Of a stretch of DNA of 32,391 nt, positions 9,535-30,717 are shown one piece after another. The DNA comes from Clostridiaceae bacterium. Its GTDB lineage: Bacteria > Bacillota > Clostridia > Oscillospirales > Acutalibacteraceae. Every line of letters starts with the position of its first letter. The stretch's first letter is position 1. The position numbers and the translations under genes were made by a program. Where the stretch lies: contig JAEEYU010000043.1 in NCBI GenBank assembly GCA_016288315.1, positions 1 through 32,391 on the forward strand, read 5' to 3'. The notes below the pieces were generated by a model, which had not been told where the DNA came from, did not search any database, and saw nothing but the letters and a program-made list of their open reading frames with translations.

Positions 9535-9579
9535 TATAATCTGCTTTTATATTTGTGTTCACAAGAAAGGACATTTTCT

Positions 9580-10596
9580 ATGGTTTATAAATCCATCGAA
9601 CTGTTTGCAGGAGCTGGAGGATTGGCTCTCGGTTTAGAAAAAGCCGGGTTTAATCACATCGGTCTAATTGAATATGATAAAGATGCGGCTGCAACTCTCT
9701 CAAAAAACAGGGAAAAATGGAATGTTCTTTGTGAAGATATTGCTGTAGTTGCTCAAAGAGATCTTGAAAAAGAATTTCAGATTAAGAAAGGGTGCCTTGA
9801 TTTATTAAGCGGCGGAGCTCCGTGTCAGTCGTTCAGCTATGCAGGTAAGCGACTCGGTCTTGACGATGTCAGAGGAACAATGTTTTACCATTATGCAACT
9901 TTTTTGAGTAAACTTCAGCCAAAAATGTTTCTGTTTGAAAATGTGCGTGGATTGTTAACGCACGACAAAGGCAGAACTTATGAAACTGTTTTGAATATTT
10001 TTGAAGATACTGGTTATACAACTTCTCACGCTGTGTTAAACGCTTGGGACTACAGTGTTCCACAAAAGAGAGAACGATTAATAACAATCGGCATCCGTAA
10101 TGACCTAACGAGTAAATGCACATTTTCTTTCCCCGAAAAACATAGTTATAAACCTTTAATCAGAGATATTAAACTTGATGTTAATCCAGACAAAAACCAT
10201 TGTGCAAGATATTCGAAGAATAAAGAAGCTGTTTTTTCCTTGGTTCCTCCCGGTGGTTATTGGCGGGATATCGACCCTGATGTTGCCAAAGAATATATGA
10301 AAACTTGTTGGGATATGGAAGGCGGCAGAACCGGCATTTTAAGACGTATCGGACTTGATGAACCATCGTTAGCAGTTTTAACTAATCCCGGAATGAAACA
10401 GACCGACAGATGTCATCCTTTAGAGGTTCGACCTTTCTCGGTCAGAGAAAATGCAAGAATCCAGACTTTCCCCGATGATTGGGCATTTTGTGGTAAATTA
10501 TCAAGTCAGTATAAACAAGTAGGAAACGCAGTTCCGGTCAATCTTGCCAAAGAAATAGGAAAAGAAATAAAAAAGACATTGGAGATGTTAAAATGA
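9580..10596 (+). CDS. Type II DNA (cytosine-5) methyltransferase
   Basis: A 338-residue m5C methyltransferase with motifs in canonical order: I, ELFAGAGGLALGL (7-19); IV, GGAPCQSF with catalytic C82; VI, ENV (120-122); VIII, QKRER (162-166); X, QVGNAVP near the end. The variable target-recognition region lies before motif IX. It transfers a methyl group from S-adenosylmethionine to cytosine and so protects DNA from the partner endonuclease. The frame extends to 9553, but the ATG at 9580 has AGAAAGGA eight bases upstream. Its stop overlaps the next gene by four bases (ATGA). Codons are much richer in A and T than in neighbouring genes, which points to horizontal transfer. Confidence 0.95.
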   Translation: MVYKSIELFAGAGGLALGLEKAGFNHIGLIEYDKDAAATLSKNREKWNVLCEDIAVVAQRDLEKEFQIKKGCLDLLSGGAPCQSFSYAGKRLGLDDVRGTMFYHYATFLSKLQPKMFLFENVRGLLTHDKGRTYETVLNIFEDTGYTTSHAVLNAWDYSVPQKRERLITIGIRNDLTSKCTFSFPEKHSYKPLIRDIKLDVNPDKNHCARYSKNKEAVFSLVPPGGYWRDIDPDVAKEYMKTCWDMEGGRTGILRRIGLDEPSLAVLTNPGMKQTDRCHPLEVRPFSVRENARIQTFPDDWAFCGKLSSQYKQVGNAVPVNLAKEIGKEIKKTLEMLK

Positions 10597-11396
10597 ATTG
10601 GAACATTTCTTTTATATCCAAAAGTGATTTTCAAAATCATGTTGAAAACACTATTAACAAGTATGGTGATAAACTCAAATCATTTGATCTTGCCCGTTTT
10701 AACAAAAACATTGTTGACCCAATTAAACTGATATTTGATAATACAGTTTACAGAAACTCATGGGAAGAAACTATTAAAAATGAAATATTCCGTCAGCGTG
10801 ATAAATCAAATAACAATGACATAGGATATTTTCATCAATATATCTTTAAATATATCAATAATTGTATTGTTCCTGATAACGGAACTCTTGGTGGATGGGA
10901 TGTTATATATAAAAATGAAAATGGTATAAAAATGCCCGACGGCAGTATTGTCCACACTATATATGTTGAGATGAAAAATAAGCACAACACAATGAATTCA
11001 TCTTCATCGGCAAAAACTTATATCAAAATGCAAAACCAGTTATTATCAGATGACGATTGTGCCTGTTTTCTTGTTGAAGCAATAGCAAAAGAATCTCAAA
11101 ATATTAAGTGGGAAACAACAGTTGACGGCAAAAAAGTGTCTCATCGATTTATACGACGAGTGAGTATTGACAAGTTTTATGAAATTGTAACCGGTGAAGA
11201 AAATGCATTTTATAATATTTGTCAAGTCCTTCCTTATACAATAAAGGATATTGTTAACTCTTCAAAGAATATTGAAGTTCCCAATGATACTGTTTATAAA
11301 GAATTGCTTAATTCTGTTCATAATGACAGCGACGCTGTTGCTATGGCAATTTATATGCTTGGATTCTCCAGTTATAATGGCTTCTCAAAAGAATAA
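10593..11396 (+). CDS. Type II restriction endonuclease, Eco47II-like
   Basis: A 267-residue protein translationally coupled to the methyltransferase. GGWDVIYKN followed by VEMKNKHNTMNSSSS gives a PD-(D/E)XK nuclease centre: D103 with E126-x-K128. The segment with MKNKHNTMNSSS recalls the Eco47II family (recognition GGNCC), the basis for the specificity suggestion; that part is from memory and less certain than the restriction role. The role is cleavage of unmethylated invading DNA in the cytoplasm. There is no controller protein gene in the pair. Very AT-rich codons match the methyltransferase and differ from the surroundings. The gene ends 12 bases before a terminator hairpin. Confidence 0.82.
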   Translation: MNWNISFISKSDFQNHVENTINKYGDKLKSFDLARFNKNIVDPIKLIFDNTVYRNSWEETIKNEIFRQRDKSNNNDIGYFHQYIFKYINNCIVPDNGTLGGWDVIYKNENGIKMPDGSIVHTIYVEMKNKHNTMNSSSSAKTYIKMQNQLLSDDDCACFLVEAIAKESQNIKWETTVDGKKVSHRFIRRVSIDKFYEIVTGEENAFYNICQVLPYTIKDIVNSSKNIEVPNDTVYKELLNSVHNDSDAVAMAIYMLGFSSYNGFSKE

Positions 11397-11454: not shown

Positions 11455-12165
11455 ATGGAAAAGGAAAAGTATAAAATGATAGGCATAATCGGCGCCATGG
11501 AAATTGAAATCAAAACAATCCGCTCGAAAATGGAAGGCAAACAGAGCAGCACTGCGGGCGGTATGGAATTTGTAAGCGGAACGCTCAACGGCACGCCCGT
11601 TGTTACAGCCGTTTGCGGAATAGGCAAGGTCTGCGCCGCCATGTGCACGCAGGCGATGGTTATAAACTACAAGCCCTCGCTCATTATCAACACGGGCGTG
11701 GGCGGCACGCTGACGGACGAGCTTTCGGTGTGCGACATCTGCGTTGCCGACAATGTATGCCAGCACGATTTTGACCTGACATCAATCGGCTCACCCGCAG
11801 GCGAAATTCCCGCAATCAATGCGGTTAAAATACCCTGCGACGCAAGGGCTGTGGAGATTCTTACCGAATGCGCAAAGCAGTTTGACGGAATAAAGGTGAA
11901 AACAGGCACGGTTGCCTCGGGCGACCAGTTCATAGCGGGCGACGCACAGAGACAGCGCATAATCGACCTCTTCGGCGCCTCCGCCTGCGAAATGGAGGGC
12001 GGTTCAATCGGTCAGGTCTGCCGCCTCAACGGCATCCCCTTTGCGGTTGTCAGGGCGATTTCTGACTCCGCCGACGGCTCTGCGGAGATGAGCTACAACG
12101 AGTTCCTTCCCCTTGCGGCTGACAATGCCGCAAAGATGATTGAGGACATTGTTGCGAAATACTGA
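11455..12165 (+). CDS. mtnN: 5'-methylthioadenosine/S-adenosylhomocysteine nucleosidase
   Basis: A 236-residue cytoplasmic enzyme (MTAN/Pfs) that cleaves adenine from methylthioadenosine, S-adenosylhomocysteine and 5'-deoxyadenosine, feeding methionine salvage and the LuxS route. MIGIIGAMEIEI matches the family start, with the catalytic Glu as E18. NTGVGG, the CEMEGGSIGQ nucleoside-binding motif and the RAISDSAD catalytic Asp are conserved. The chosen ATG adds seven residues before the usual start but has AAGGAG eight bases upstream. It is followed after 38 bases by the FAD reductase. Confidence 0.95.
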   Translation: MEKEKYKMIGIIGAMEIEIKTIRSKMEGKQSSTAGGMEFVSGTLNGTPVVTAVCGIGKVCAAMCTQAMVINYKPSLIINTGVGGTLTDELSVCDICVADNVCQHDFDLTSIGSPAGEIPAINAVKIPCDARAVEILTECAKQFDGIKVKTGTVASGDQFIAGDAQRQRIIDLFGASACEMEGGSIGQVCRLNGIPFAVVRAISDSADGSAEMSYNEFLPLAADNAAKMIEDIVAKY

Positions 12166-12203
12166 ACGGAGCGGATAAACAGAAATAAACAAGCGGTGAT
12201 GAA

Positions 12204-13541
12204 ATGCAGGATTACGACGTTCTCATAATCGGCGGCGCCACATCGGGCGCATATTTTGCAAAAAAAACGGCGAAACTCGGGCACAGCGTAAAAATCATTG
12301 AAAAGCTCAGCCCGGAAAAGCTCGGCACAAAAATGGATATAGTCCACCTGACAAAGACCGACCTTAAAACCTTTGACATACCGACGGTGCGCGAGGGCGA
12401 CCCCGGATGGGCGTTTGAGTTCAGCGACAACGGTTTCGGCTCGCCGTCGAACAGATACCGCACGCCCGTGCCTGCCGAAACGGTGGGGCTACACCTGCAC
12501 GAATACACTGCCCTTATGGTTAAAGAGGCGGCTGACGCCGGAGCGGAGATTGAATACAACGCAGCGTTCAAGGAGTTCCTGTTCACCGACGGTCACATAA
12601 GCGGAGCGCGTTATGACACGCCCGAAGGCGAAAAAGAGATAAACGCCAAGGTTGTTGTTGACTGCTCGGGCGCAGACGCCCTGCCGAGAAGAAGTCTGCC
12701 AAACGGCTACGGCATTGAGCGCTTCAAGCTCGCCGACGATGATATGTTCTATGTTATTCTTCGCTATGCAAAATTTGATGAGCCGCAGGAGAACACCTTC
12801 TGGCTCAACACGAAATCGTGGTTTGCCCCCTTCTCGATGAACAGCTGTGAAAAAATCATCGGAACGGGAGCGACAGGCGGCTTTGAAAACGCCGAAAGAG
12901 AGGCGGCAAAGCTCGACAGCGTGACATCGCACGGCAATTTTGAGCTGATTAAAACGGAAAAGGGAGTAACGCCCTTTTGCAGACCGCCCTACTCGCTTGT
13001 TGCCGACAGCTTTATTGTTGCGGGCGACTCCGCCTGCCTGACAAAGCCCGACTGCGGCGAGGGCATAACCTCGAGCATGGTTATGATTGACACGGCAGTT
13101 GAAGTTCTTGACAAAGCGCTTAAAAACGGCGACGTGACAAAAGAGGCGCTCTGGGAGATAAACCGCGCATATAACCGCATTCAGGGAGCGTCGTTTTCGC
13201 TTGTGCGCGCTTTTCTGACAAAGCTTGTGGGAGCGGTTACCGACGATGAAATTGAATATCTTTTCTCGCAGGGGCTTGTTTTTAACAGCAAATTCCTCGG
13301 CGATGAAAAACCGACAGCGCAGGACCTCATAAAAACGGTGACGGGAATATTGAGCGCAATACCCAAAAAATACATCAGCGCAAAAACAACAGCCGCCGCT
13401 CTCTCCGGCATGCGGCTGGGCGCTGAGCTTTACGCACTCTACATGAACTTCCCGAAATCGCCCGGATATCTTCCGCTGTGGAGCGCAAGGGTGCAGAAGC
13501 TGTGGGACCGGGTCGGAAAGGTAGCGGGCAGTCACTCGTAA
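12204..13541 (+). CDS. FAD-dependent oxidoreductase, geranylgeranyl reductase/FixC-like
   Basis: A 445-residue flavoprotein. The N-terminal dinucleotide fold is DVLIIGGATSGAYFAKKTAK (G10, G11 and G15 of the Gly-rich loop). An internal VVVDCSGAD segment and IVAGDSACLTKPDCGEGI form the second FAD-binding signature of the GGR/FixC group. Relatives reduce isoprenoid chains or pass electrons in flavin-based pathways; the substrate here is unknown. There are no obvious membrane helices. The start has only a weak GGTGATG site. The last codons (GSHS and stop) lie inside the left 18-bp arm of the inverted-repeat element at 13525-13805, so the C-terminus may have been remodelled by that element. Confidence 0.82.
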   Translation: MQDYDVLIIGGATSGAYFAKKTAKLGHSVKIIEKLSPEKLGTKMDIVHLTKTDLKTFDIPTVREGDPGWAFEFSDNGFGSPSNRYRTPVPAETVGLHLHEYTALMVKEAADAGAEIEYNAAFKEFLFTDGHISGARYDTPEGEKEINAKVVVDCSGADALPRRSLPNGYGIERFKLADDDMFYVILRYAKFDEPQENTFWLNTKSWFAPFSMNSCEKIIGTGATGGFENAEREAAKLDSVTSHGNFELIKTEKGVTPFCRPPYSLVADSFIVAGDSACLTKPDCGEGITSSMVMIDTAVEVLDKALKNGDVTKEALWEINRAYNRIQGASFSLVRAFLTKLVGAVTDDEIEYLFSQGLVFNSKFLGDEKPTAQDLIKTVTGILSAIPKKYISAKTTAAALSGMRLGAELYALYMNFPKSPGYLPLWSARVQKLWDRVGKVAGSHS

Positions 13542-13805
13542 AACAGTCCTGCCTCAAAGAGCGACCTTCGCACATCTTTGCAGATATTCCTCTTCGGAAT
13601 ACATCAAGTATTCCTCATCGTCATTACCCGCAAATATGCACAAATTTCATCTCTTTGAGGTGCAAAGCAGTTTTCACGCAAAAAAAGAGCCGCAGAACAG
13701 GGAAGATTGAGAGAGCGGACTTTATGTCCTGTAAACAAATCTGACGATGTTATGCGGCTTTTGGTTTGAGGTGAAAACCAAGACCGGTTTACGAGTGACT
13801 GCCCG
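13525..13805. repeat. 281-bp segment bounded by 18-bp perfect inverted repeats (MITE-like or large structured RNA)
   Basis: The arm at 13525-13542 (CGGGCAGTCACTCGTAAA) is an exact reverse complement of 13788-13805. Inside lie a second perfect pair, CCTCAAAGAG (13552-13561) with CTCTTTGAGG (13651-13660); a hairpin GGAATAC/GTATTCC (13596-13614) that competes with TATTCC/GGAATA just upstream; and AGCCGCA/TGCGGCT (13688-13694 with 13753-13759) followed by TTTT. No convincing gene is present. No clear target-site duplication is seen next to the arms. It could be a non-autonomous mobile element or a long terminator-like structure after the reductase. Confidence 0.6.
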
Positions 13806-20909: not shown

Positions 20910-20947
20910 TTGGAAAAAGAGACAGCCGCGCTGAAAAGCGCGGCTGT
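20910..20947. terminator. Bidirectional terminator between GH3 and the sulfosugar-type cluster
   Basis: Ten-pair stem ACAGCCGCGC/GCGCGGCTGT (20922-20931 with 20938-20947), loop TGAAAA. On the minus strand it is followed by TCTTTTTCC, a good T run; on the plus strand by T-rich TGCTGTTGTT. It ends both converging transcripts. Confidence 0.8.
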
Positions 20948-22011: not shown

Positions 22012-23400
22012 TCAGTCTTCGTTTTCGTCTCTGATTTCGGCTATCATTTCATCGCTTATTGTCTGAGTTTCGCCGTGTTTTACCTGGCTCATGCAGATAA
22101 GGGCGAGAGCGAAGCAGATGGGGGCATAGACGAACAGCGACCAGTAGTTGGGCTGATCGGATGCGGACATCGCTTTTGTGAGGTCGAACATACCGCCGAC
22201 GAGGACGGGACCGACGATTGAAGCCGAGAAGGTTGCGGTGTAATAGTAGCCGGTGAAGGTGCCGACTCTTTCAACGCCGCCGATTTCAAGCACAAGGGGA
22301 AGGGTATTGATTGTAACGAAGGCGATGAGGATGCCGCCGCAGACGATGGCGACATAGAGAAGGGGCATAAACTTTGTGGCAAAGTAGGCGAAGAAGAGCG
22401 CGAGGGCGCCTATCCAGCCCGACATAATAGTCTTTTTTCTGCCGAACTTCTGACCGAGTTTGCCTGCAGGGATTGCGCCGATGACGGTTGAAGCCGCAAA
22501 GAGCGTAATGACGAGGGAGGCGTTTGCCTCGGTGAAGCCGAGCTCATATTTTGCAAAGGTTGTGAAATAGGTCTGGATGGAGTCGGTGGCGTTTGAGTTG
22601 AAGAACAGGGCGACGAGCATAAAGATAAGACTCTTGATTTCGCCCTTTGTGAGCTTCATCTGTTTAAGACCGGTTTTGCCTTCCGCCTTTGCCTTGCCCT
22701 GCTCATAGTCGGCGGCGAGCTGAGCCGCCTCCGCCTTGGTGATTCTGTTGTCGGGCTCGCGAACGAGGAAGACGACGACGAGAAGGCAGACTACCATAAT
22801 GCAGGAGCCGAAGAGGAAGACGTTGTTGCGTATGGCGGCTTCGGGAGTGCCGTCGGGCATAATGAAGGTGATGATTTTGCCCGAGACGGTGCCGAGAACG
22901 ACGCCGATGCCGCCCATGATATTGATGACGGCGTTGCCCTCGCCTCTTATGGCGGAGGGGGTGAAGTCGGGCATAAGCGCGACGACGGGGGAGCGCCAGG
23001 TTGACATAATGAAGTTGAAGACGATTATGTCAAGCATAAGGATGCCGAGAAGCTGGATTCTCGGGATGAATATGAACAGCAGTGCGCAAAGCGGAATGCC
23101 ATACATAAGGAAAGGCGTTCTTTTGCCGAAGCGGGTGTGGGTTCTGTCGGATATTCTGCCGAAGAGGGGCTGGAAAACGACACCGAAGATGTTGTCGATA
23201 ACCATAATGATACCGACTGCGGTGCCCGCCCAGGCGAGACTTTCGATTGCCCTGTTCTCTTTGAGAATGAGCGGAACGTAGGCGTTGTAGATAATCCAGG
23301 CAATCTGAACCGCCATAAAGCCGAAGCCGGTGAGAGCGGTGTGCCCGTAGTGAAGCTTGCCGTTTGGTTTTTCACAGTAGAGGCGTTTTGTCTCTTCCAT
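22012..23400 (-). CDS. MFS sugar transporter, GPH (glycoside-pentoside-hexuronide) type
   Basis: A 462-residue, 12-helix permease. SDRTHTRFGKRTPFLMYG between helices 2 and 3 is the GPH/SLC45-type signature, and FGRKKTIMSGW is its counterpart in the second half. A cytoplasmic loop of about 40 charged residues (about 215-255) separates the two halves. Members take up sugars or glycosides with a cation; E. coli YihO and YihP, the sulfoquinovose-related importers, belong to this broad group. The frame has a GTG three codons earlier, but the ATG at 23398-23400 has GGAG eight bases upstream. It has its own strong promoter and lies downstream of the transaldolase and GH31 genes. Confidence 0.87.
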   Translation of the reverse strand: MEETKRLYCEKPNGKLHYGHTALTGFGFMAVQIAWIIYNAYVPLILKENRAIESLAWAGTAVGIIMVIDNIFGVVFQPLFGRISDRTHTRFGKRTPFLMYGIPLCALLFIFIPRIQLLGILMLDIIVFNFIMSTWRSPVVALMPDFTPSAIRGEGNAVINIMGGIGVVLGTVSGKIITFIMPDGTPEAAIRNNVFLFGSCIMVVCLLVVVFLVREPDNRITKAEAAQLAADYEQGKAKAEGKTGLKQMKLTKGEIKSLIFMLVALFFNSNATDSIQTYFTTFAKYELGFTEANASLVITLFAASTVIGAIPAGKLGQKFGRKKTIMSGWIGALALFFAYFATKFMPLLYVAIVCGGILIAFVTINTLPLVLEIGGVERVGTFTGYYYTATFSASIVGPVLVGGMFDLTKAMSASDQPNYWSLFVYAPICFALALICMSQVKHGETQTISDEMIAEIRDENED

Positions 23401-23442
23401 AAATAACACTCCTTAAATTAACGTTGGGGTCTTATTGTTTTG

Positions 23443-23483: not shown

Positions 23484-24173
23484 TTACTCCTCGGTGATGG
23501 TTTTATCCCAAGCCGCCTGGAAACGTTTGAGACCGAGGTCGGTGAAGGGGTGATACATACTGTCTTTATAGACCTGGAGACCGGCGGTGACGATATCCGC
23601 GCCTGCGACGGCGCAGTCAACCATCTGTTTGCCAGTGCGCACGGCGGCGCAGATAATTTCGGTTTTGCCGTAGAAGCCGTAGTTTTTGTAGATGTCAACG
23701 ATGTCGGCTATGTAAGCGGCGCAGTCTTCACCGCTCTGCTCCTTCCAGCCGATGAAGGGGGAGACGAAGAGGGAGCCGTTCTTTGCGGCGATGAGCGCCT
23801 GTGAGGCGGAGAAAACGAGGGTGAGATTTGTGCGGATGCCCTCTTTTTCGAGCTTGCGGGCTGCCGCTATGCCTGACTCGGTGCAGGGGATTTTGATGAC
23901 GAAGTTTTTGCACATACCGCTGATTTTGCGAGCCATTGCGAGCATTTCGTCAACGTCGTCGAGGTGGGGGTTGATTTCGACCGAAACGGGGAATTTCTCA
24001 TAGCCCTCAAGGCCGTTTTCTTTGACGAAGGCGGCGAGCTCGGCTATTACGGTGTAAAAGGGCTTGCCCGAGTTCATAATATGATTGGGGTTTGTTGTTA
24101 CGCCGTCGATGCCGAAGGTGGAATACGCCTCTCTGATTTCATCGATTTTTGCGCTGTCAAGAAAATACTTCAT
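23484..24173 (-). CDS. FSA/TalC-type transaldolase, candidate 6-deoxy-6-sulfofructose transaldolase (SftT-like)
   Basis: A 229-residue class I aldolase of the short transaldolase family. MKYFLDSAKIDEIREAYST and GIDGVTTNPN form the usual first strands. The Schiff-base Lys is K94 in FVIKIPCT. In E. coli FSA the phosphate of the substrate is held by R134 and S166; by alignment these are W143 (SPFIGWKEQ) and A177 (ICAAVRTGKQ) here. A substrate with a non-phosphate C6 group, such as a sulfonate, fits this loss. It stands four bases after the GH31 gene, so the two are coupled. The likely reaction is cleavage of a 6-substituted fructose with transfer of dihydroxyacetone to an acceptor. Plain fructose-6-phosphate aldolase is the alternative but is less likely with these residues. 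Confidence 0.82.
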   Translation of the reverse strand: MKYFLDSAKIDEIREAYSTFGIDGVTTNPNHIMNSGKPFYTVIAELAAFVKENGLEGYEKFPVSVEINPHLDDVDEMLAMARKISGMCKNFVIKIPCTESGIAAARKLEKEGIRTNLTLVFSASQALIAAKNGSLFVSPFIGWKEQSGEDCAAYIADIVDIYKNYGFYGKTEIICAAVRTGKQMVDCAVAGADIVTAGLQVYKDSMYHPFTDLGLKRFQAAWDKTITEE

Positions 24174-24177
24174 TTTA

Positions 24178-26181
24178 TTATCCTCCGAAGTTTATATTGT
24201 TTAATATTCCGAGCAGAGCGGGGTCTGCTTTTTTGCGGACGAATACGGGCGGCTGGCCGACGGGGGCGTCAACTCTGACTGTGCCGCCGAAATAAACCTT
24301 GCCCGAGGGGACGTGAATCCACTCGTCTTTCGGGAGCCATACCTCGCGCTCCGACGTTCTGGGGCGGATGACGGGGGCTACTAAAATATCTCTGCCGAGC
24401 AGATATTCATACGCCTCGGTGTAAGCTCTCTCCTCATCATAGTAGAAGAACAGGGGGCGCACGACGCCGACGCCCTTCTGAGCGTTGAGCGAGACCGCCT
24501 CTTTGAGGTAGGGCTTGAGCGCTGCGTGAATCTGAGTCATCTTCGCGGAGTGGTTGAGAACCTCTTCGCTTGCGTCGAACTGGGCGTTCAGGTCGGGATT
24601 GAGACCCTCGTGCCCTCTCATAAGCAGTGAAAAGGCGTTCATCTCAGCCCAGCGCATATAGAGCTCTTCGCTGCGGCGAAGTATGCCGAAGGTGGTGTAG
24701 CCGGCGATATCCGAGTGGCTCAGACCGAAGCCGCAGCAGGTAAGCGAGAGCATTGCGGGTATGACCGAGGGCATACCGTAATCTATTGAGAAATCGACAT
24801 GATTGTCGCCGTTCCACATCATTGTTGAGAAGCGGGGTGTGTCGGAGTAGCCGGCGCGGGTGAAGAAGAAAATCTCGCCGAGCTTGCCGCTCTCCTCGAC
24901 TGCCTCGCGGTTGAGACGTGCCCAGAGCGCGGGCCAGGTGTTGTGGATGAGTTCGGCGTCGGCTCCGTTATAGAGCACGCAGTCCGTAGGCAGATATTCG
25001 CCGAAATCCGCCATCCAGCCGGAGAGACCGAAATCAATCATATTCTTTTTGATGATGCCCTTCATCCAGTTCCACGCATCGGGGTTGGTAAGGTCAATCA
25101 TCGCGGCGGGGAAGGTGGTGATTTTGACGAGGTAGTCGGCTCCGTTTTTATCCTTGACGCAGTAGCCGTTTGCGCTCGCCTCTTTATAGAGCGGTTTTTC
25201 GATGGCAAGGAAGGGGTTGCAGTAGCCGAGAACTCTGATGCCCTGAGCGTTGAGCTCTTTGATTTTTTCATCGAGGGCGGGGTAAAGCTCACTGTCCCAC
25301 TCCCAGTTCCACATAAGCTGTTTGCCTGCGGCTGTGACGCGGCGGCCTTCCCAGTCCTGAATCCAGACACCGTTGACCTTCATGCCGTGGTCGAGAGTGT
25401 TTTGAACCTTGCTCATCATAATATCGGTGCCGCCCTGGATGCCGAGAATTTCGCCGTCATAGACCCAGTCGGGCAGTTCGGGCTGCCTGCCGACGACCTT
25501 TGTGAGGTCGGAGACGACATCCTCGAAGGTGTCGCCCCAGCCCATACAGAAGCCGCAGACGCTGTCGGTTTTGACGGAGACGTGCTTTTTTGCGGAGAAA
25601 TCGAACTGGGTGCGGGCGTTGTTGAACGAGTGGAAATAGTATTTGTCGGAGCTTAAATAGGTCGGCTGGGCGTAGTAGGTCTCATAATGCGAGAAATCCT
25701 CCTTGCGGGTGGAGTCGCGCATGCCTATTGAGATTTTGGCGAGCTTTTTGATGATTGATTTTGCGTTGATGTGCTCGCTTACCCAGACATCCGACTTTTT
25801 GCCGCGCAGGTCGAACTCGCTGAAGATTTCGCCTGTGCCGTAGAAGTGCTCATTCTCCGCCGCAGGGAGATTGAACCACATTCTGTTGCAACCGTCGAAG
25901 CCGTCGAAGGAGACCTCGAGGCGGTCGCCGCTGACCTGAACCTGCGCCGAGCCCTCGGTTAAGATGAGGACGGCGGTGTCGCCGCTGACAACCGCGCTTT
26001 TGAGCACGATGCCGCGTTTGCGTGTGATTTTTTCGCTGACAGAGAAGCTGCCGCGGTTCATGGTGTAGGTGCTTTTGCCGGAGCCGACTTTGAAAAGCTC
26101 GACGCCGGGCGCCGCCGTGAAGAGGCGCCTGCCGTTGCGGCTGAGTTCAAAGCCGGTCCCCATTTTTGAAAGTTTTATCAT
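24178..26181 (-). CDS. GH31 alpha-glycosidase of the YihQ (sulfoquinovosidase) type, with altered sulfonate-binding residue
   Basis: A 667-residue enzyme. Its catalytic domain aligns gap-free with E. coli YihQ as remembered: WVYDGEILGIQGGT, WIQDWEGRRVTAAGKQLMWN, GWMADFGEYLPTD, MMWNGDNHVDFS and LSHSDIAGYTT. The offset of 13 residues is constant, giving nucleophile D392 (E. coli D405) and acid/base D459 (D472). Of the sulfoquinovose-binding set Q262, Q288, R301, W304 and Y508, four are kept (Q249, Q275, W291, Y495), but R301 is Q288. YihQ releases sulfoquinovose from plant sulfolipid glycosides. Changed specificity is possible. No signal peptide, so it acts on imported glycoside. It starts with AGGAG upstream and is first in the cluster. 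Confidence 0.88.
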   Translation of the reverse strand: MIKLSKMGTGFELSRNGRRLFTAAPGVELFKVGSGKSTYTMNRGSFSVSEKITRKRGIVLKSAVVSGDTAVLILTEGSAQVQVSGDRLEVSFDGFDGCNRMWFNLPAAENEHFYGTGEIFSEFDLRGKKSDVWVSEHINAKSIIKKLAKISIGMRDSTRKEDFSHYETYYAQPTYLSSDKYYFHSFNNARTQFDFSAKKHVSVKTDSVCGFCMGWGDTFEDVVSDLTKVVGRQPELPDWVYDGEILGIQGGTDIMMSKVQNTLDHGMKVNGVWIQDWEGRRVTAAGKQLMWNWEWDSELYPALDEKIKELNAQGIRVLGYCNPFLAIEKPLYKEASANGYCVKDKNGADYLVKITTFPAAMIDLTNPDAWNWMKGIIKKNMIDFGLSGWMADFGEYLPTDCVLYNGADAELIHNTWPALWARLNREAVEESGKLGEIFFFTRAGYSDTPRFSTMMWNGDNHVDFSIDYGMPSVIPAMLSLTCCGFGLSHSDIAGYTTFGILRRSEELYMRWAEMNAFSLLMRGHEGLNPDLNAQFDASEEVLNHSAKMTQIHAALKPYLKEAVSLNAQKGVGVVRPLFFYYDEERAYTEAYEYLLGRDILVAPVIRPRTSEREVWLPKDEWIHVPSGKVYFGGTVRVDAPVGQPPVFVRKKADPALLGILNNINFGG

Positions 26182-26484: not shown

Positions 26485-27114
26485 TTATTCGGCTTTGGGG
26501 AGGTTCCAGCGGTTGAAGGCGGCGAGGACCCGCAGAAGGACGACGAGGGCGAGGCCTGCTGCCATTGCGATATATCTGCCTGCCGGTTCCCACAGCAGAA
26601 TACAGACCGCCGCGCCGAGTATTGAGGCGGTGGCGTAGATGTGCTCGACGAAAATCGAAGGTTTTTCGCCGGCGAAGATGTCGCGCAAAACTCCGCCGCC
26701 CACGCCCGTCACGACGCCGACGAAGAGGTAGAGATAAACCCCGTGGGCGTTTGTTTCGGAGTGAGTCGCCTGTATGCCTATTACGGTGAAGACGCCGAGA
26801 CCGACGGCATCGACGACGGTCAGGACGTTATTGAAAGCGGGGGCGTGCCTGTTGATTGATTTGCGCACGGGCGGAAGAAAGATTATGAGTGAGGTCAGCA
26901 GCGCCACGAGCGAATAAATCGGATTGCGGAAAGCGGCGGGGGGAGTGTAGCCGAGCACGAGGTCGCGGATTATTCCGCCGCCGGTTGCCGTTGTGAGCCC
27001 CAGAATCATTACGCCCAGGACATCCATTTTTTTGTTGACAGCCGTCAGCGCGCCGGAGACGGCGAAGGCGGCTGTGCCGAGGAGTTCGAGGGCGAGAGCG
27101 TAAATCTCATCCAT
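26485..27114 (-). CDS. Trimeric intracellular cation (TRIC) channel family protein, YicG/UPF0126
   Basis: A 209-residue membrane protein of about seven helices in two similar halves. Each half has the family signature: TATGGGIIRDLVLG (about 43-56) and GVGGGVLRDIFAG (about 137-149). Bacterial TRIC relatives form trimeric K+-permeable channels. Its ATG overlaps the stop of the M18 aminopeptidase by one base (TAATG), so it is the last gene of the operon. No terminator is evident directly after it. Confidence 0.92.
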   Translation of the reverse strand: MDEIYALALELLGTAAFAVSGALTAVNKKMDVLGVMILGLTTATGGGIIRDLVLGYTPPAAFRNPIYSLVALLTSLIIFLPPVRKSINRHAPAFNNVLTVVDAVGLGVFTVIGIQATHSETNAHGVYLYLFVGVVTGVGGGVLRDIFAGEKPSIFVEHIYATASILGAAVCILLWEPAGRYIAMAAGLALVVLLRVLAAFNRWNLPKAE

Positions 27115-28517
27115 TATTTTTGTTCAAAGAAGGCGCGGAAGCCCTTGTAGGCGCTGTATATATCAATTTTAGCGGCCACCTCGAAGGGGGCGTGCATACA
27201 GAGCATGGGGACGCCGACATCGACAACCTCGATGCCTTCGTTTGCGAGGTATTTTGCGACCGTTCCGCCGCCGCCCTCGTCAACCTTGCCGAGCTCGCCC
27301 GTCTGCCAGAGGACGCAGGAATCATTGAATATTTTTGCGACCTTGCCTAAAAATTCGGCGTTTGCGTCGGAGGTGCCGCCCTTGCCGCGCGCACCCGTAT
27401 ATTTTGTGAGAACAATGCCCTTATTGAGATAAGCTGCGTTGAGTTTGTCGTGAACCGAGGGGAAGACGGGGTCAAAGCCCGCATTGACATCGGCGGAGAG
27501 GCACTCGCACGCGCGGATGACGTCTCTGCCGGAGAAGCCCTGATTTTCGGCTATATCATATATGAACTGGGTGAGGTAGGCGGAGTTGAGACCCGTTACG
27601 CCGTCGCTGCCCGTTTCTTCTTTATCGGTGAGAACGGCTATGCCCGTGTATTCGGGTGAGCAGGCGTCGAAGTGGGAGGTGAAGGCGGGGTAGGCGCAGA
27701 CCCTGTCATCGTGGCCGTAGGCGCCGATGAGACTGCGGTCAAAGCCGAGGTCGCAGGCGGGGTATGAGGGAACGGCTTCAAGCTCGGCGGTCATAAAATC
27801 CTCTTCGACGATGCCGTATTTTTCGTTTAATATTTTCATTATTGCGAGCTTGACGAGGTCGGCTCCTTCGCCGCCCTTTAAGGGCAGGGAGCCGATGAGG
27901 ATGTTGAGCTCTTCGCCCTTTATGCCGTCGGCGAGGGTTCTTTTCTCCTGCTCGTCGGCGAGGTGGGGAAGAAGGTCGGTGATTATAAAGCGGGGCTCGC
28001 CGTCGGAATCGCCGATGCGCACGGTCACCTTTTCGCCGTTCTTTTTAACGACGACGCCGTGAAGGGAGAGGGGCATAACCGTCCACTGATATTTTTTGAT
28101 TCCGCCGTAGTAGTGGGTTTTGAAGTAGGCGAGCTCCGAATCCTCATAAAGCGGATTGGGCTTTAAGTCGAGGCGGGGGGAGTCGATGTGGGAGGCGACG
28201 ATTTTTGCGCCCTCGCAAAGGGGCTTTTTGCCGAAGGTGCAAAGCACGACGCTCTTGCCTCTGTTGTTGAAATAAACCCTGTCGCCCGCCTGATATTTTT
28301 TTGATTTGTCAAAGGGAGTGAAGCCGCGTTTTTCGGCTTCGGCGACAATGAAGGCGGCGCACTCGCGCTCGGTGCGGCAGGCGTTCATAAAATCCGTATA
28401 GCCGCCGCAGTAGTCAAACGCCTTTTCAAGTTCGTCGCCGATTTTTACCGCGCCGCTGCGGCGGTCGGCGAAAAGCTGTTCTTTAAGAATTTCGGTTGCG
28501 TTTTTTTCGTTGCTCAT
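27114..28517 (-). CDS. M18-family aminopeptidase
   Basis: A 467-residue cytoplasmic zinc exopeptidase that removes N-terminal residues from peptides. Metal and catalytic motifs are in order: SHIDSPRLDLKP (His ligand), YGHDDRVCAY (bridging Asp), DKEETGSDGVTG (catalytic and ligand Glu), RGKGGTSDANAEFLG and CMHAPFEVAAKIDI (His ligand). A GTG precedes the ATG by one codon; the ATG at 28515-28517 is chosen, with AAGGAG ten bases upstream, though the GTG is seven bases away and also possible. It lies between the lytic transglycosylase and the TRIC gene in a close-packed operon. Confidence 0.93.
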   Translation of the reverse strand: MSNEKNATEILKEQLFADRRSGAVKIGDELEKAFDYCGGYTDFMNACRTERECAAFIVAEAEKRGFTPFDKSKKYQAGDRVYFNNRGKSVVLCTFGKKPLCEGAKIVASHIDSPRLDLKPNPLYEDSELAYFKTHYYGGIKKYQWTVMPLSLHGVVVKKNGEKVTVRIGDSDGEPRFIITDLLPHLADEQEKRTLADGIKGEELNILIGSLPLKGGEGADLVKLAIMKILNEKYGIVEEDFMTAELEAVPSYPACDLGFDRSLIGAYGHDDRVCAYPAFTSHFDACSPEYTGIAVLTDKEETGSDGVTGLNSAYLTQFIYDIAENQGFSGRDVIRACECLSADVNAGFDPVFPSVHDKLNAAYLNKGIVLTKYTGARGKGGTSDANAEFLGKVAKIFNDSCVLWQTGELGKVDEGGGGTVAKYLANEGIEVVDVGVPMLCMHAPFEVAAKIDIYSAYKGFRAFFEQK

Positions 28518-28532
28518 CACTCGGTATCTCCT

Positions 28533-29091: not shown

Positions 29092-30717
29092 TTATTTAAG
29101 CGCGGCGGCTATGATTTCATCCGCCTTTGCGTGAAAATCCTCGCCGGCGGCGTTGCTTATTGTGTATTGGGTGTTTTCGATATAATAGCTTTCGGGCTTC
29201 TGCGCATTGATTCTTGTGAGCGCCTGTTCGACCGTTATGCCGTCGCGTTCGACTATTCTTCTGACGCGTTCGTCACGGGGGGCGACGACGCACACGAGCA
29301 TATCGCACATATTGATTATAGGGCTTTGCAGGAGGGCGGCGGCGTCGATGATTACGCCTTTGGAGTCGCTTCTGTCTGCCCGGGTGATTTCAATATAAGT
29401 CAGAGCCGTAATTGTCGGGTGGGTGATGGCGTTGAGCGCCTTTGTTTTTTCGGGAGTTGCGAACGCTCTGTCGGCGGTGAGACGGCGGTTGAGCGAGCCG
29501 TCTTCGTTGATGATGTCGGCGCCGAACTCCTTTGCGAGATTGGCGAGAACCTCTTTGTTTCTGACCGCTTCGCGCGCGAGGACATCGCCGTCAATGAGAT
29601 AGAAGCCGTTTTTGACAAAATACTGCGCTACGGTTGATTTGCCTGCGCCCGTGGGACCTGTGAGACCGATGACGGGGAGGCGTTTGTCAACATCGACGAC
29701 GTGAAAAGCCGCCGAGCGCAGAAGACGGTTGTAAACCGCGAGACCGAGACCGACGGGTTTGGGGCAGCGCACGAAGGCGCGGGAGAAGCCGAGGTCATCG
29801 ACCTTGCGCAGAACATAGAAAAGGTTGGAGGCGAGACTGAGCCCGTCATCCTCAAGACCGTATTCAACGGCGGGGACGTCGAACATATTTTTTTCGCCGG
29901 TGAAGCAGACGGCGACGCTCTCCGCATTGCCGTATTTATTGACGTATCTTATTGTGTTTTCAAGACTGCCGCGAAGCAGGACGACCTCCGCTTCGGGCGA
30001 GTAGTGTTTGTATTTCATGCCCGGGGACTGCGCTTTCTCTGTGCCTGAAAGCTCGGAGAAAACGGCGCTGTCAACTATGAGATCGGGCAGGAACTCCTGC
30101 AGCTCTTCGGGGGTGATTTTGCCCGGGCGCAGGAGGCGGGGCGGCTCCGTGGCGAGGGTTATGACCGTTGACTCGACGCCGATTTCGCACTTGCCGCCGT
30201 CAACTATGAGATCGATTTTGCCGGACATATCGTCGCAGACGTGCTGAGCCGTTGTGGGGCTCGGTTTGCCCGAGGTGTTGGCACTGGGTGCGGCAACGGG
30301 CACGCCCGCCGCTCTGATTATGGCATTGGCAACGGGGTGTGATGGGCAGCGGACGGCGACGGTGTCAAGCCCGCCGCTTGTGATATCCGGCACGAGGGAG
30401 GACTTCTTCATAACGACGGTCAGCGGACCCGGCCAGAATTTTTCCGCCAGGGCGTAAAATCTTTTATCGACCTCTTTGACGAGGGGGGCGACTCCGTTTA
30501 AATCCGCGACGTGAACGATGAGCGGATTGTCGGACGGTCTGCCCTTTGCCTCGAATATCTTTCTGACGGCGTCGGGGTCGAGGGCGTTTGCCGCAAGACC
30601 GTAAACCGTCTCCGTAGGAACGGCGGCAATACCGCCTTCGCGCAGGACAGCGCCCGCCTTTTCAATGAGGGCGGAATCCTTTGCGACATCTTCTATTCTG
30701 ATAATTTCTGTTTTCAT
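29092..30717 (-). CDS. Fusion: threonylcarbamoyl-AMP synthase (Sua5) with dephospho-CoA kinase (CoaE)
   Basis: A 541-residue protein in one uninterrupted frame. Residues about 8-205 are the YrdC domain (AAVPTETVYGLAANA, KGRPSDNPLIVHV, AAPSANTSGKPSPT), which makes threonylcarbamoyl-AMP for the t6A37 tRNA modification. Residues about 230-340 are the Sua5 domain (SPGMKYKHYSPEAEVVLLRG). From about 347 a complete CoaE follows: P-loop GLTGPTGAGKST (351-362), YLIDGDVLAREAV, and a C-terminal NAAGEDFHAKADEI. CoaE phosphorylates dephospho-CoA in the last step of CoA synthesis. The usual PLLFE motif is replaced by AALLQSPI. It starts one base after the prfA stop, so it is coupled. Confidence 0.93.
   Translation of the reverse strand: MKTEIIRIEDVAKDSALIEKAGAVLREGGIAAVPTETVYGLAANALDPDAVRKIFEAKGRPSDNPLIVHVADLNGVAPLVKEVDKRFYALAEKFWPGPLTVVMKKSSLVPDITSGGLDTVAVRCPSHPVANAIIRAAGVPVAAPSANTSGKPSPTTAQHVCDDMSGKIDLIVDGGKCEIGVESTVITLATEPPRLLRPGKITPEELQEFLPDLIVDSAVFSELSGTEKAQSPGMKYKHYSPEAEVVLLRGSLENTIRYVNKYGNAESVAVCFTGEKNMFDVPAVEYGLEDDGLSLASNLFYVLRKVDDLGFSRAFVRCPKPVGLGLAVYNRLLRSAAFHVVDVDKRLPVIGLTGPTGAGKSTVAQYFVKNGFYLIDGDVLAREAVRNKEVLANLAKEFGADIINEDGSLNRRLTADRAFATPEKTKALNAITHPTITALTYIEITRADRSDSKGVIIDAAALLQSPIINMCDMLVCVVAPRDERVRRIVERDGITVEQALTRINAQKPESYYIENTQYTISNAAGEDFHAKADEIIAAALK

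Follow-up and report, generated by a model that had tools for sequence, protein, structure and literature searches.

The window analyzed here is the whole stretch of 32,391 nucleotides of contig JAEEYU010000043.1 from a Clostridiaceae bacterium. Its minus strand carries a four-gene run headed by a gene of glycoside hydrolase family 31 (GH31), which is followed by genes for a transaldolase, a transporter and a membrane protein (Table 1). The GH31 protein represents a clade-wide conserved variant of a known enzyme family, most likely still a sulfoquinovosidase (SQase), in which glutamine takes the place of the arginine that presumably contacts the sulfonate of sulfoquinovose (SQ) in Escherichia coli YihQ. 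The protein scored 759 bits with the NCBIfam profile NF007746, whose cut-off is 553; YihQ of strain K-12 reached 1247 bits. Its nearest solved structure was YihQ (5aed/5aeg/5oht; E 1.9e-194), to which it is 44.7% identical, and the other closest structures were the SQase of B. megaterium, SftG of E. rectale and the A. tumefaciens enzyme. An AlphaFold2 model, established from 35 clade members with 5 of 40 alignment rows left out, reached a mean predicted local distance difference test score (pLDDT) of 87.0 and a predicted template modelling (TM) score of 0.89. Among the 50 Foldseek matches listed for this model, 23 SQase chains had TM-scores of 0.88-0.92, and no other GH31 chain exceeded 0.73. 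An ordinary alpha-glucosidase or xylosidase was rejected because of these lower TM-scores and because NF007940 and NF040948 scored far under their cut-offs. A plus-strand frame over the same positions is interrupted by many stops and was also discarded; the original prediction had named no strand. Judged by profile, fold and context, the protein is a putative YihQ-family SQase, as a variant rather than a typical member. The E. coli genome named as a control matched NF007746 below the cut-off, and may come from a strain without yihQ.

The signature set of SQases comprises Gln/Gln (or Lys/Glu), Arg, Trp and Tyr, and in the Arg-types the sulfonate is bound by Arg301, Trp304 and a water molecule on Tyr508 (YihQ numbering). 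Alignment with K-12 YihQ placed Gln288 of the window protein at R301, while Q262, Q288, W304 and Y508 were retained as Q249, Q275, W291 and Y495. The pair D405 and D472, which we take to be the catalytic nucleophile and the acid/base, was retained as D392 and D459. The Gln/Gln, Trp and Tyr of the signature are present, and Gln288 stands where the sulfonate-binding Arg is expected. The original prediction had claimed this substitution together with the survival of the four other recognition residues, and the alignment bears out both. No Arg or Lys occupies the site, and misalignment of R301 was excluded by an alignment that is ungapped from YihQ 285 to 312. The constant offset of 13 residues that had been claimed between the two proteins holds at all seven aligned signature and catalytic sites. 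Outside the barrel it breaks down: it is 9 at residue 54, and a 4-aa insertion near window residues 137-146 shifts it from 16 to 12.

The distribution of the Gln was analyzed in 78 related loci, many of which are from Clostridia of the rumen or other herbivore guts. Residue 301 was Gln in 74 and His in one (L063), the site not being covered in three, and the four other signature residues were invariant. The loci were gathered from bacterial genomes by a scan with six sequence patterns, which is biased towards Gln because one of them, QLMWNWEW, includes that residue; pattern-independent profile searches yielded Arg-types and Gln-types alike. Seven of 391 genomes of the class and six of 398 genomes of the phylum, the window's genome included each time, gave profile matches above the cut-off. 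Further comparison sequences were taken from a search of 200 genomes of the family and from six plasmid-borne proteobacterial genes. Partial rows (L040, L046, L063, L067, L071, L073, L075, L076 and L079) were dropped from later alignments, as were L001 and L002, and the 69 remaining clade loci were thinned to 18 for the trees. L153 (345 aa) was left out of one Arg/Gln comparison, and the divergent L154, with E at the 508 position, was excluded from the second tree and the column scan. In the 50-row tree the main Gln group (30 rows) was supported in 100/100, and the Gln state required three changes, all forced by well-supported branches. When the columns of the trait itself were removed, the second tree again required three changes, two of them forced. 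The Gln outsiders to the main clade are L150 and a tandem pair in L117, and Gln is thus estimated from these trees to have arisen in two or three lineages. Separately, L152 (2788-4797) encodes an SQase-family protein that deviates from the signature in another way, with Arg301 but Tyr at the W304 position and Phe at the Y508 position.

The substitution at residue 301 is accompanied by changes elsewhere in the pocket. Besides 301, the columns that best track Arg or Gln over the 50 tree rows are 297, 373, 474, 369, 366, 367, 368, 371 and 374, and seven of these nine fall within the loop 366-374; the ranking is descriptive, because letters were allotted to the two sides using the same rows. EFGEFYGGV of YihQ is KITTFPAAM in the window protein, with Thr356 in place of E369, and the outsiders L117 and L150 have the same loop form (ITTFPAAM/ITAFPAAI). 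Thr was found at 369 in 77 of 77 loci covering the site, where L076 was read as two frame-shifted pieces, one of which gives an out-of-frame Asp. Among 102 sequences, the 301/369 pair was Q/T in 83 and Q/A in one, and R/E in 15, R/D in one, R/A in one (L120) and R/S in one (L154), so that residue 369 is acidic in 16 of the 18 Arg-type sequences. Nine partial loci, including the His locus L063 (H/T), lie outside this count. Furthermore, positions 297 and 474, of which 474 lies two residues past the acid/base, differ from the Arg-types, and the loop at residues 137-150 is rebuilt. The pocket had been described as otherwise near-identical to that of YihQ, a description which does not survive these differences. 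The origin of Gln in two or three lineages, and the switching of loop 366-374 with residue 301, are the points that are new here.

The gene context was then compared by profile over the 78 loci. A transaldolase was found in 66, an SqvD-like isomerase in 64, a protein like sulfolactaldehyde reductase in 60, DUF4867 in 49, TauE in 48, a GPH transporter in 45 and a ROK regulator in 26. Of the 78 loci, 75 carry one or more of transaldolase, isomerase, reductase and DUF4867, and the contigs of the remaining three run out no more than 139 bases past the GH31 frame. Where at least 6 kb follows downstream (56 loci), transaldolase, isomerase and reductase occur together in 46. The remaining ten consist of four closest relatives of the window, with the transaldolase only, and six with isomerase and DUF4867. 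In these six (L053, L055, L056, L058, L060 and L081), at least 6 kb of downstream sequence holds neither a transaldolase nor a reductase, and they may represent another split of the pathway or another pathway.

The transaldolase of the window is 63% identical to BmSF-TAL of B. megaterium. Its catalytic residues are retained, and it has a W-A-R triad where the canonical transaldolases 1vpx and 6ys0 have R-S-R; the triad was found in 69 of 69 transaldolase rows (the window's gene being counted twice). As read off the alignment, the putative WAR motif is W138/A170/R172; a motif of this name is postulated to orient the sulfonate in BmSF-TAL (PMC11659671). A fructose-6-phosphate aldolase or canonical transaldolase was rejected, TIGR00875 scoring under its cut-off and the triad being W-A-R, not R-S-R. 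In the reductase, all 53 rows that cover the position of YihU R123, a residue with a presumed functional role, have Lys or Arg at it. In the window's own genome (G000, 77.7% complete), contig C48 carries an isomerase, TauE and a GPH transporter. The isomerase scored 820 bits to the clade profile, and its single NCBIfam match was SftI (392 bits, below the cut-off of 700). A reductase homologue, 65% identical to that of L024, lies on contig C21. In the congener G405, genes for GH31, isomerase and reductase lie on separate contigs, and none of the three was found in the congener G529. The pathway genes absent from the window were dismissed as an argument against sulfoglycolysis, since they are present on other contigs.

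Conservation of this kind bears on the possibility that the protein is a degenerate or weak SQase, in which Gln lowers affinity under relaxed selection. Such an explanation would account for the loss of a residue considered essential. It is opposed by the presence of Gln in 74 of the 75 loci covering the site, by the four invariant signature residues, by the uniform Thr369 and by a gene order conserved over long range, and appears highly improbable.

Table 1. Positions of the features discussed, in window coordinates unless a locus is named.
Feature	Position	Strand	Basis or remark
GH31 sulfoquinovosidase-family gene, Gln288 type	24178..26181	minus	667 aa, ATG to stop; profile, alignment, fold
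Rebuilt loop HINAKSIIKKLAKI, residues 137-150, 4-aa insertion	25732..25773	minus	alignment
Gln249 codon (YihQ Q262), kept	25435..25437	minus	alignment; position calculated from start codon
Gln275 codon (YihQ Q288), kept	25357..25359	minus	alignment; position calculated from start codon
Gln288 codon (YihQ Arg301 equivalent)	25318..25320	minus	alignment; 25309-25320 reads QLMW
Trp291 codon (YihQ W304), kept	25309..25311	minus	alignment, codon reading
Loop KITTFPAAM, residues 353-361 (YihQ EFGEFYGGV 366-374); Thr356 = YihQ E369	25099..25125	minus	alignment
Asp392 codon (YihQ D405)	25006..25008	minus	alignment; position calculated from start codon
Asp459 codon (YihQ D472)	24805..24807	minus	alignment; position calculated from start codon
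Tyr495 codon (YihQ Y508), kept	24697..24699	minus	alignment
Sulfofructose-type transaldolase (229 aa), next gene downstream of GH31	23484..24173	minus	profile, alignment
MFS-type transporter	22012..23409	minus	profile
Membrane protein, same operon, about 320-340 aa	20972..21994	minus	library scans, relatives
Terminator-like stem-loop after four-gene run	20922..20947	minus	consensus match only
M18 aminopeptidase	27114..28520	minus	just upstream of the GH31 run
Glycine-transporter-family protein	26485..27114		follows the aminopeptidase; one base shared
Cytosine-5 DNA methylase adjoining Eco47II-type restriction endonuclease	9553..11396	plus	
Threonylcarbamoyl-AMP synthase (Sua5 + C-terminal domain), then dephospho-CoA kinase	29092..30717	minus	single frame
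G110 tandem Gln301/Phe508 GH31 paralogues	L117:5121-7169 and 11524-13554		mutual identity 85%

Regarding the rest of the four-gene run, the MFS-type transporter is presumed to take up the glycoside or the sugar. The membrane protein was without a match in Pfam, NCBIfam or PHROGs at E 0.001, and relatives of it were found in only 4 of the 78 loci, namely L004-L007, the loci closest to the window. A role in transport or sensing, linked to the split pathway of this genus, is possible. Terminator-like stem-loops number 9 in the whole stretch against 6.6 in shuffles. Elsewhere in the window, the DNA methylase and its adjoining endonuclease form an ordinary type II restriction-modification pair, and the synthase and kinase read as one frame are a housekeeping fusion.

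Gln-types and Arg-types occur in the same kinds of gene cluster, and a shared substrate is therefore favoured. In the transaldolase-type cluster, Gln is found in L118 and Arg in L119. In the transketolase-like cluster (isomerase, DUF4867, RpiB and TauE), Gln is found in L158 and Arg in L120, the transketolase half being confirmed only in L120, and only L158 having a Pfam match to iron alcohol dehydrogenase. In the class-II aldolase/ABC-transporter cluster, L150 has Gln together with an isomerase, and L148 has Arg together with a phosphofructokinase. The window enzyme is probably a retaining GH31 alpha-sulfoquinovosidase that feeds transaldolase-type sulfoglycolysis, with its sulfonate pocket rebuilt. 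The predicted flux would begin with the conversion of released SQ to sulfofructose by the SftI/SqvD-like isomerase encoded on another contig. The transaldolase of the window would then cleave sulfofructose to sulfolactaldehyde and fructose-6-phosphate, after which sulfolactaldehyde would be reduced by the reductase of the 3-hydroxyacid-dehydrogenase family, and the resulting C3-sulfonate would be exported by the TauE-type protein.

Another glycoside, either a different sulfosugar or an uncharged C6-modified glucoside, was also weighed as the substrate of the clade. The loss of the Arg would fit such a change, as would the genome G110, in which the Gln301/Phe508 paralogues lie away from the Arg-type SQase and the sulfosugar cluster. 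A rumen study points the same way, in that few yihQ operational taxonomic units responded to SQ with a rise; its tree places the majority of rumen yihQ variants on a long branch with Mariniplasma BK011_07555, and yihQ richness is mostly assigned to Ca. Limivicinus (PMC13219744). This long-branch group may correspond to the clade described here. The uniform W-A-R triad of the transaldolase, the Lys or Arg of the reductase and the TauE-type genes in 48 of the 78 loci argue against a changed substrate, which is regarded as quite unlikely, although the clade may act on another sulfosugar or another aglycone. The original prediction had offered both a different anion contact and a different C6-modified alpha-glucoside. 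The different contact is the better supported of the two, with the clade recovered in 100/100, the W-A-R transaldolase, the context in 75 of 78 loci and the loop switch all in agreement. The different C6 group is disfavoured by context for this clade, while a changed substrate is hinted at in the outside lineage of G110.

How a sulfonate might be held without the Arg can be considered in comparison with known enzymes. YihQ (5aed, 5aee, 5oht) resembles the window enzyme in fold (TM about 0.90), in Q262, Q288, W304 and Y508, and in the catalytic Asp residues. Unlike YihQ, the window enzyme has Gln for Arg301, the KITTFPAAM loop and the insertion at 137-150, and Q473 and N474 beside the acid/base are replaced by Asn and His. 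SftG (6pnr) and the B. megaterium SQase (8r56), both from Bacillota and with a TM-score of 0.92 to the window model, retain the Arg, unlike the window enzyme. The A. tumefaciens SQase (5ohs, 5ohy, 7ofx) has the same fold (TM 0.89-0.91) and also departs from Q-Q-R-W-Y, in the opposite manner: its K-E-R-W-Y type has Lys and Glu for the two Gln but retains the Arg, the proteobacterial rows likewise showing K and E with R, whereas in the window enzyme the Gln residues stay and the Arg is lost. Neutral donors are able to hold oxyanions, the sulfate-binding protein being a precedent, although it is not a hydrolase. Natural variants at the sulfonate contact in sulfosugar clusters likewise occur in the NAD-dependent SQase family of another fold, with the difference that the contact there is main-chain and the pocket is reported to stay intact.

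In the proposed arrangement, the Arg/Glu charge pair at 301 and 369, whose proximity and contact we infer, would have been replaced in one piece by a neutral pair, Gln/Thr, and replacement of both members of the Arg/acid pair keeps the net charge. The sulfonate would be hydrogen-bonded, with no formal charge, by Gln288 and Trp291, to which Thr355/Thr356 or main-chain NH groups may be added. It is tentatively suggested, at somewhat less than an even chance, that the Gln-types may be full SQases which bind sulfonate in this manner, the Arg/acid module having become neutral Gln/Thr in two or three lineages of the family, and this second type being widespread in herbivore-gut Clostridia. Alternatively, the lost Arg301 could have been replaced by a cation from elsewhere, for example Lys146, His137, Lys329 or His461, leaving the pocket positive. 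Among the columns with a basic residue in 90% or more of the clade but in no more than 20% of the Arg-types are window positions 137 (His), 146 (Lys), 425 (Arg) and 461 (His), each in 75 of 75 rows, as well as 329 (Lys) and 552 (His), each in 74 of 75. Two of these lie in the 137-150 loop with its 4-aa insertion. However, L117 and L150 are without the insertion, and Q and N replace His137 and Lys146 there, so that a cation from this loop is not a general solution, and replacement of the charge is considered unlikely. With the neutral Gln/Thr arrangement, the Lys and His of the 137-150 loop might still serve the main clade as an outer cation.

Several observations weigh against a sulfoquinovosidase with a neutral Gln/Thr module as proposed above. 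The test of the 301/369 pair gave p 0.5, the switch being based on two to three independent changes with which the test cannot reach significance, and L120 pairs Arg with Ala369. The pLDDT of the model is lowest in the pocket loops, with means of 70 (residues 281-290), 71 (351-360), 52 (461-470) and 56-72 (131-170). The genome G110 has an Arg-type SQase (Glu369) beside a transaldolase and an isomerase (L173), and additionally two Gln301/Phe508 paralogues flanking a sugar ABC transporter (L117), a stretch in which none of seven sulfoglycolysis profiles found a match. In G110, Gln may mark another substrate. Regarding the pathway, the transaldolase is the only linked gene of the known set within the window, and the reductase, as represented by the protein of L118, has an unspecific family match, to 2-hydroxy-3-oxopropionate reductase with 200 bits against 157 for sulfolactaldehyde reductase, both below cut-off. 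A search for DUF4867 (SqvB/SftX) that was positive in 4 of 6 other genomes gave nothing in G000, G405 and G529. According to PMC11968277, this protein is present in many clusters and is not essential; SftG is described there as part of a transaldolase-type sulfoglycolysis cluster, and known SQases are given kcat/KM values in the 1e5 M-1 s-1 range on 4-nitrophenyl-alpha-sulfoquinovoside.

In the sulfoquinovosidase literature searched, which lay mostly outside subscription papers and was available in part, no description of the Gln variant was found, and the strings QQRWY and QQQWY gave no match. SQases give access to sulfoquinovose, which is produced at 10 billion tons per year (PMC10755693). 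If the motif used to build profiles requires Arg, the Gln clade, common in the Clostridia examined, would be overlooked and the pathway would seem less widespread than it is. Furthermore, the switch of residue 301 together with loop 366-374 provides a two-site hypothesis for how sulfonate specificity may be achieved without a charged contact.

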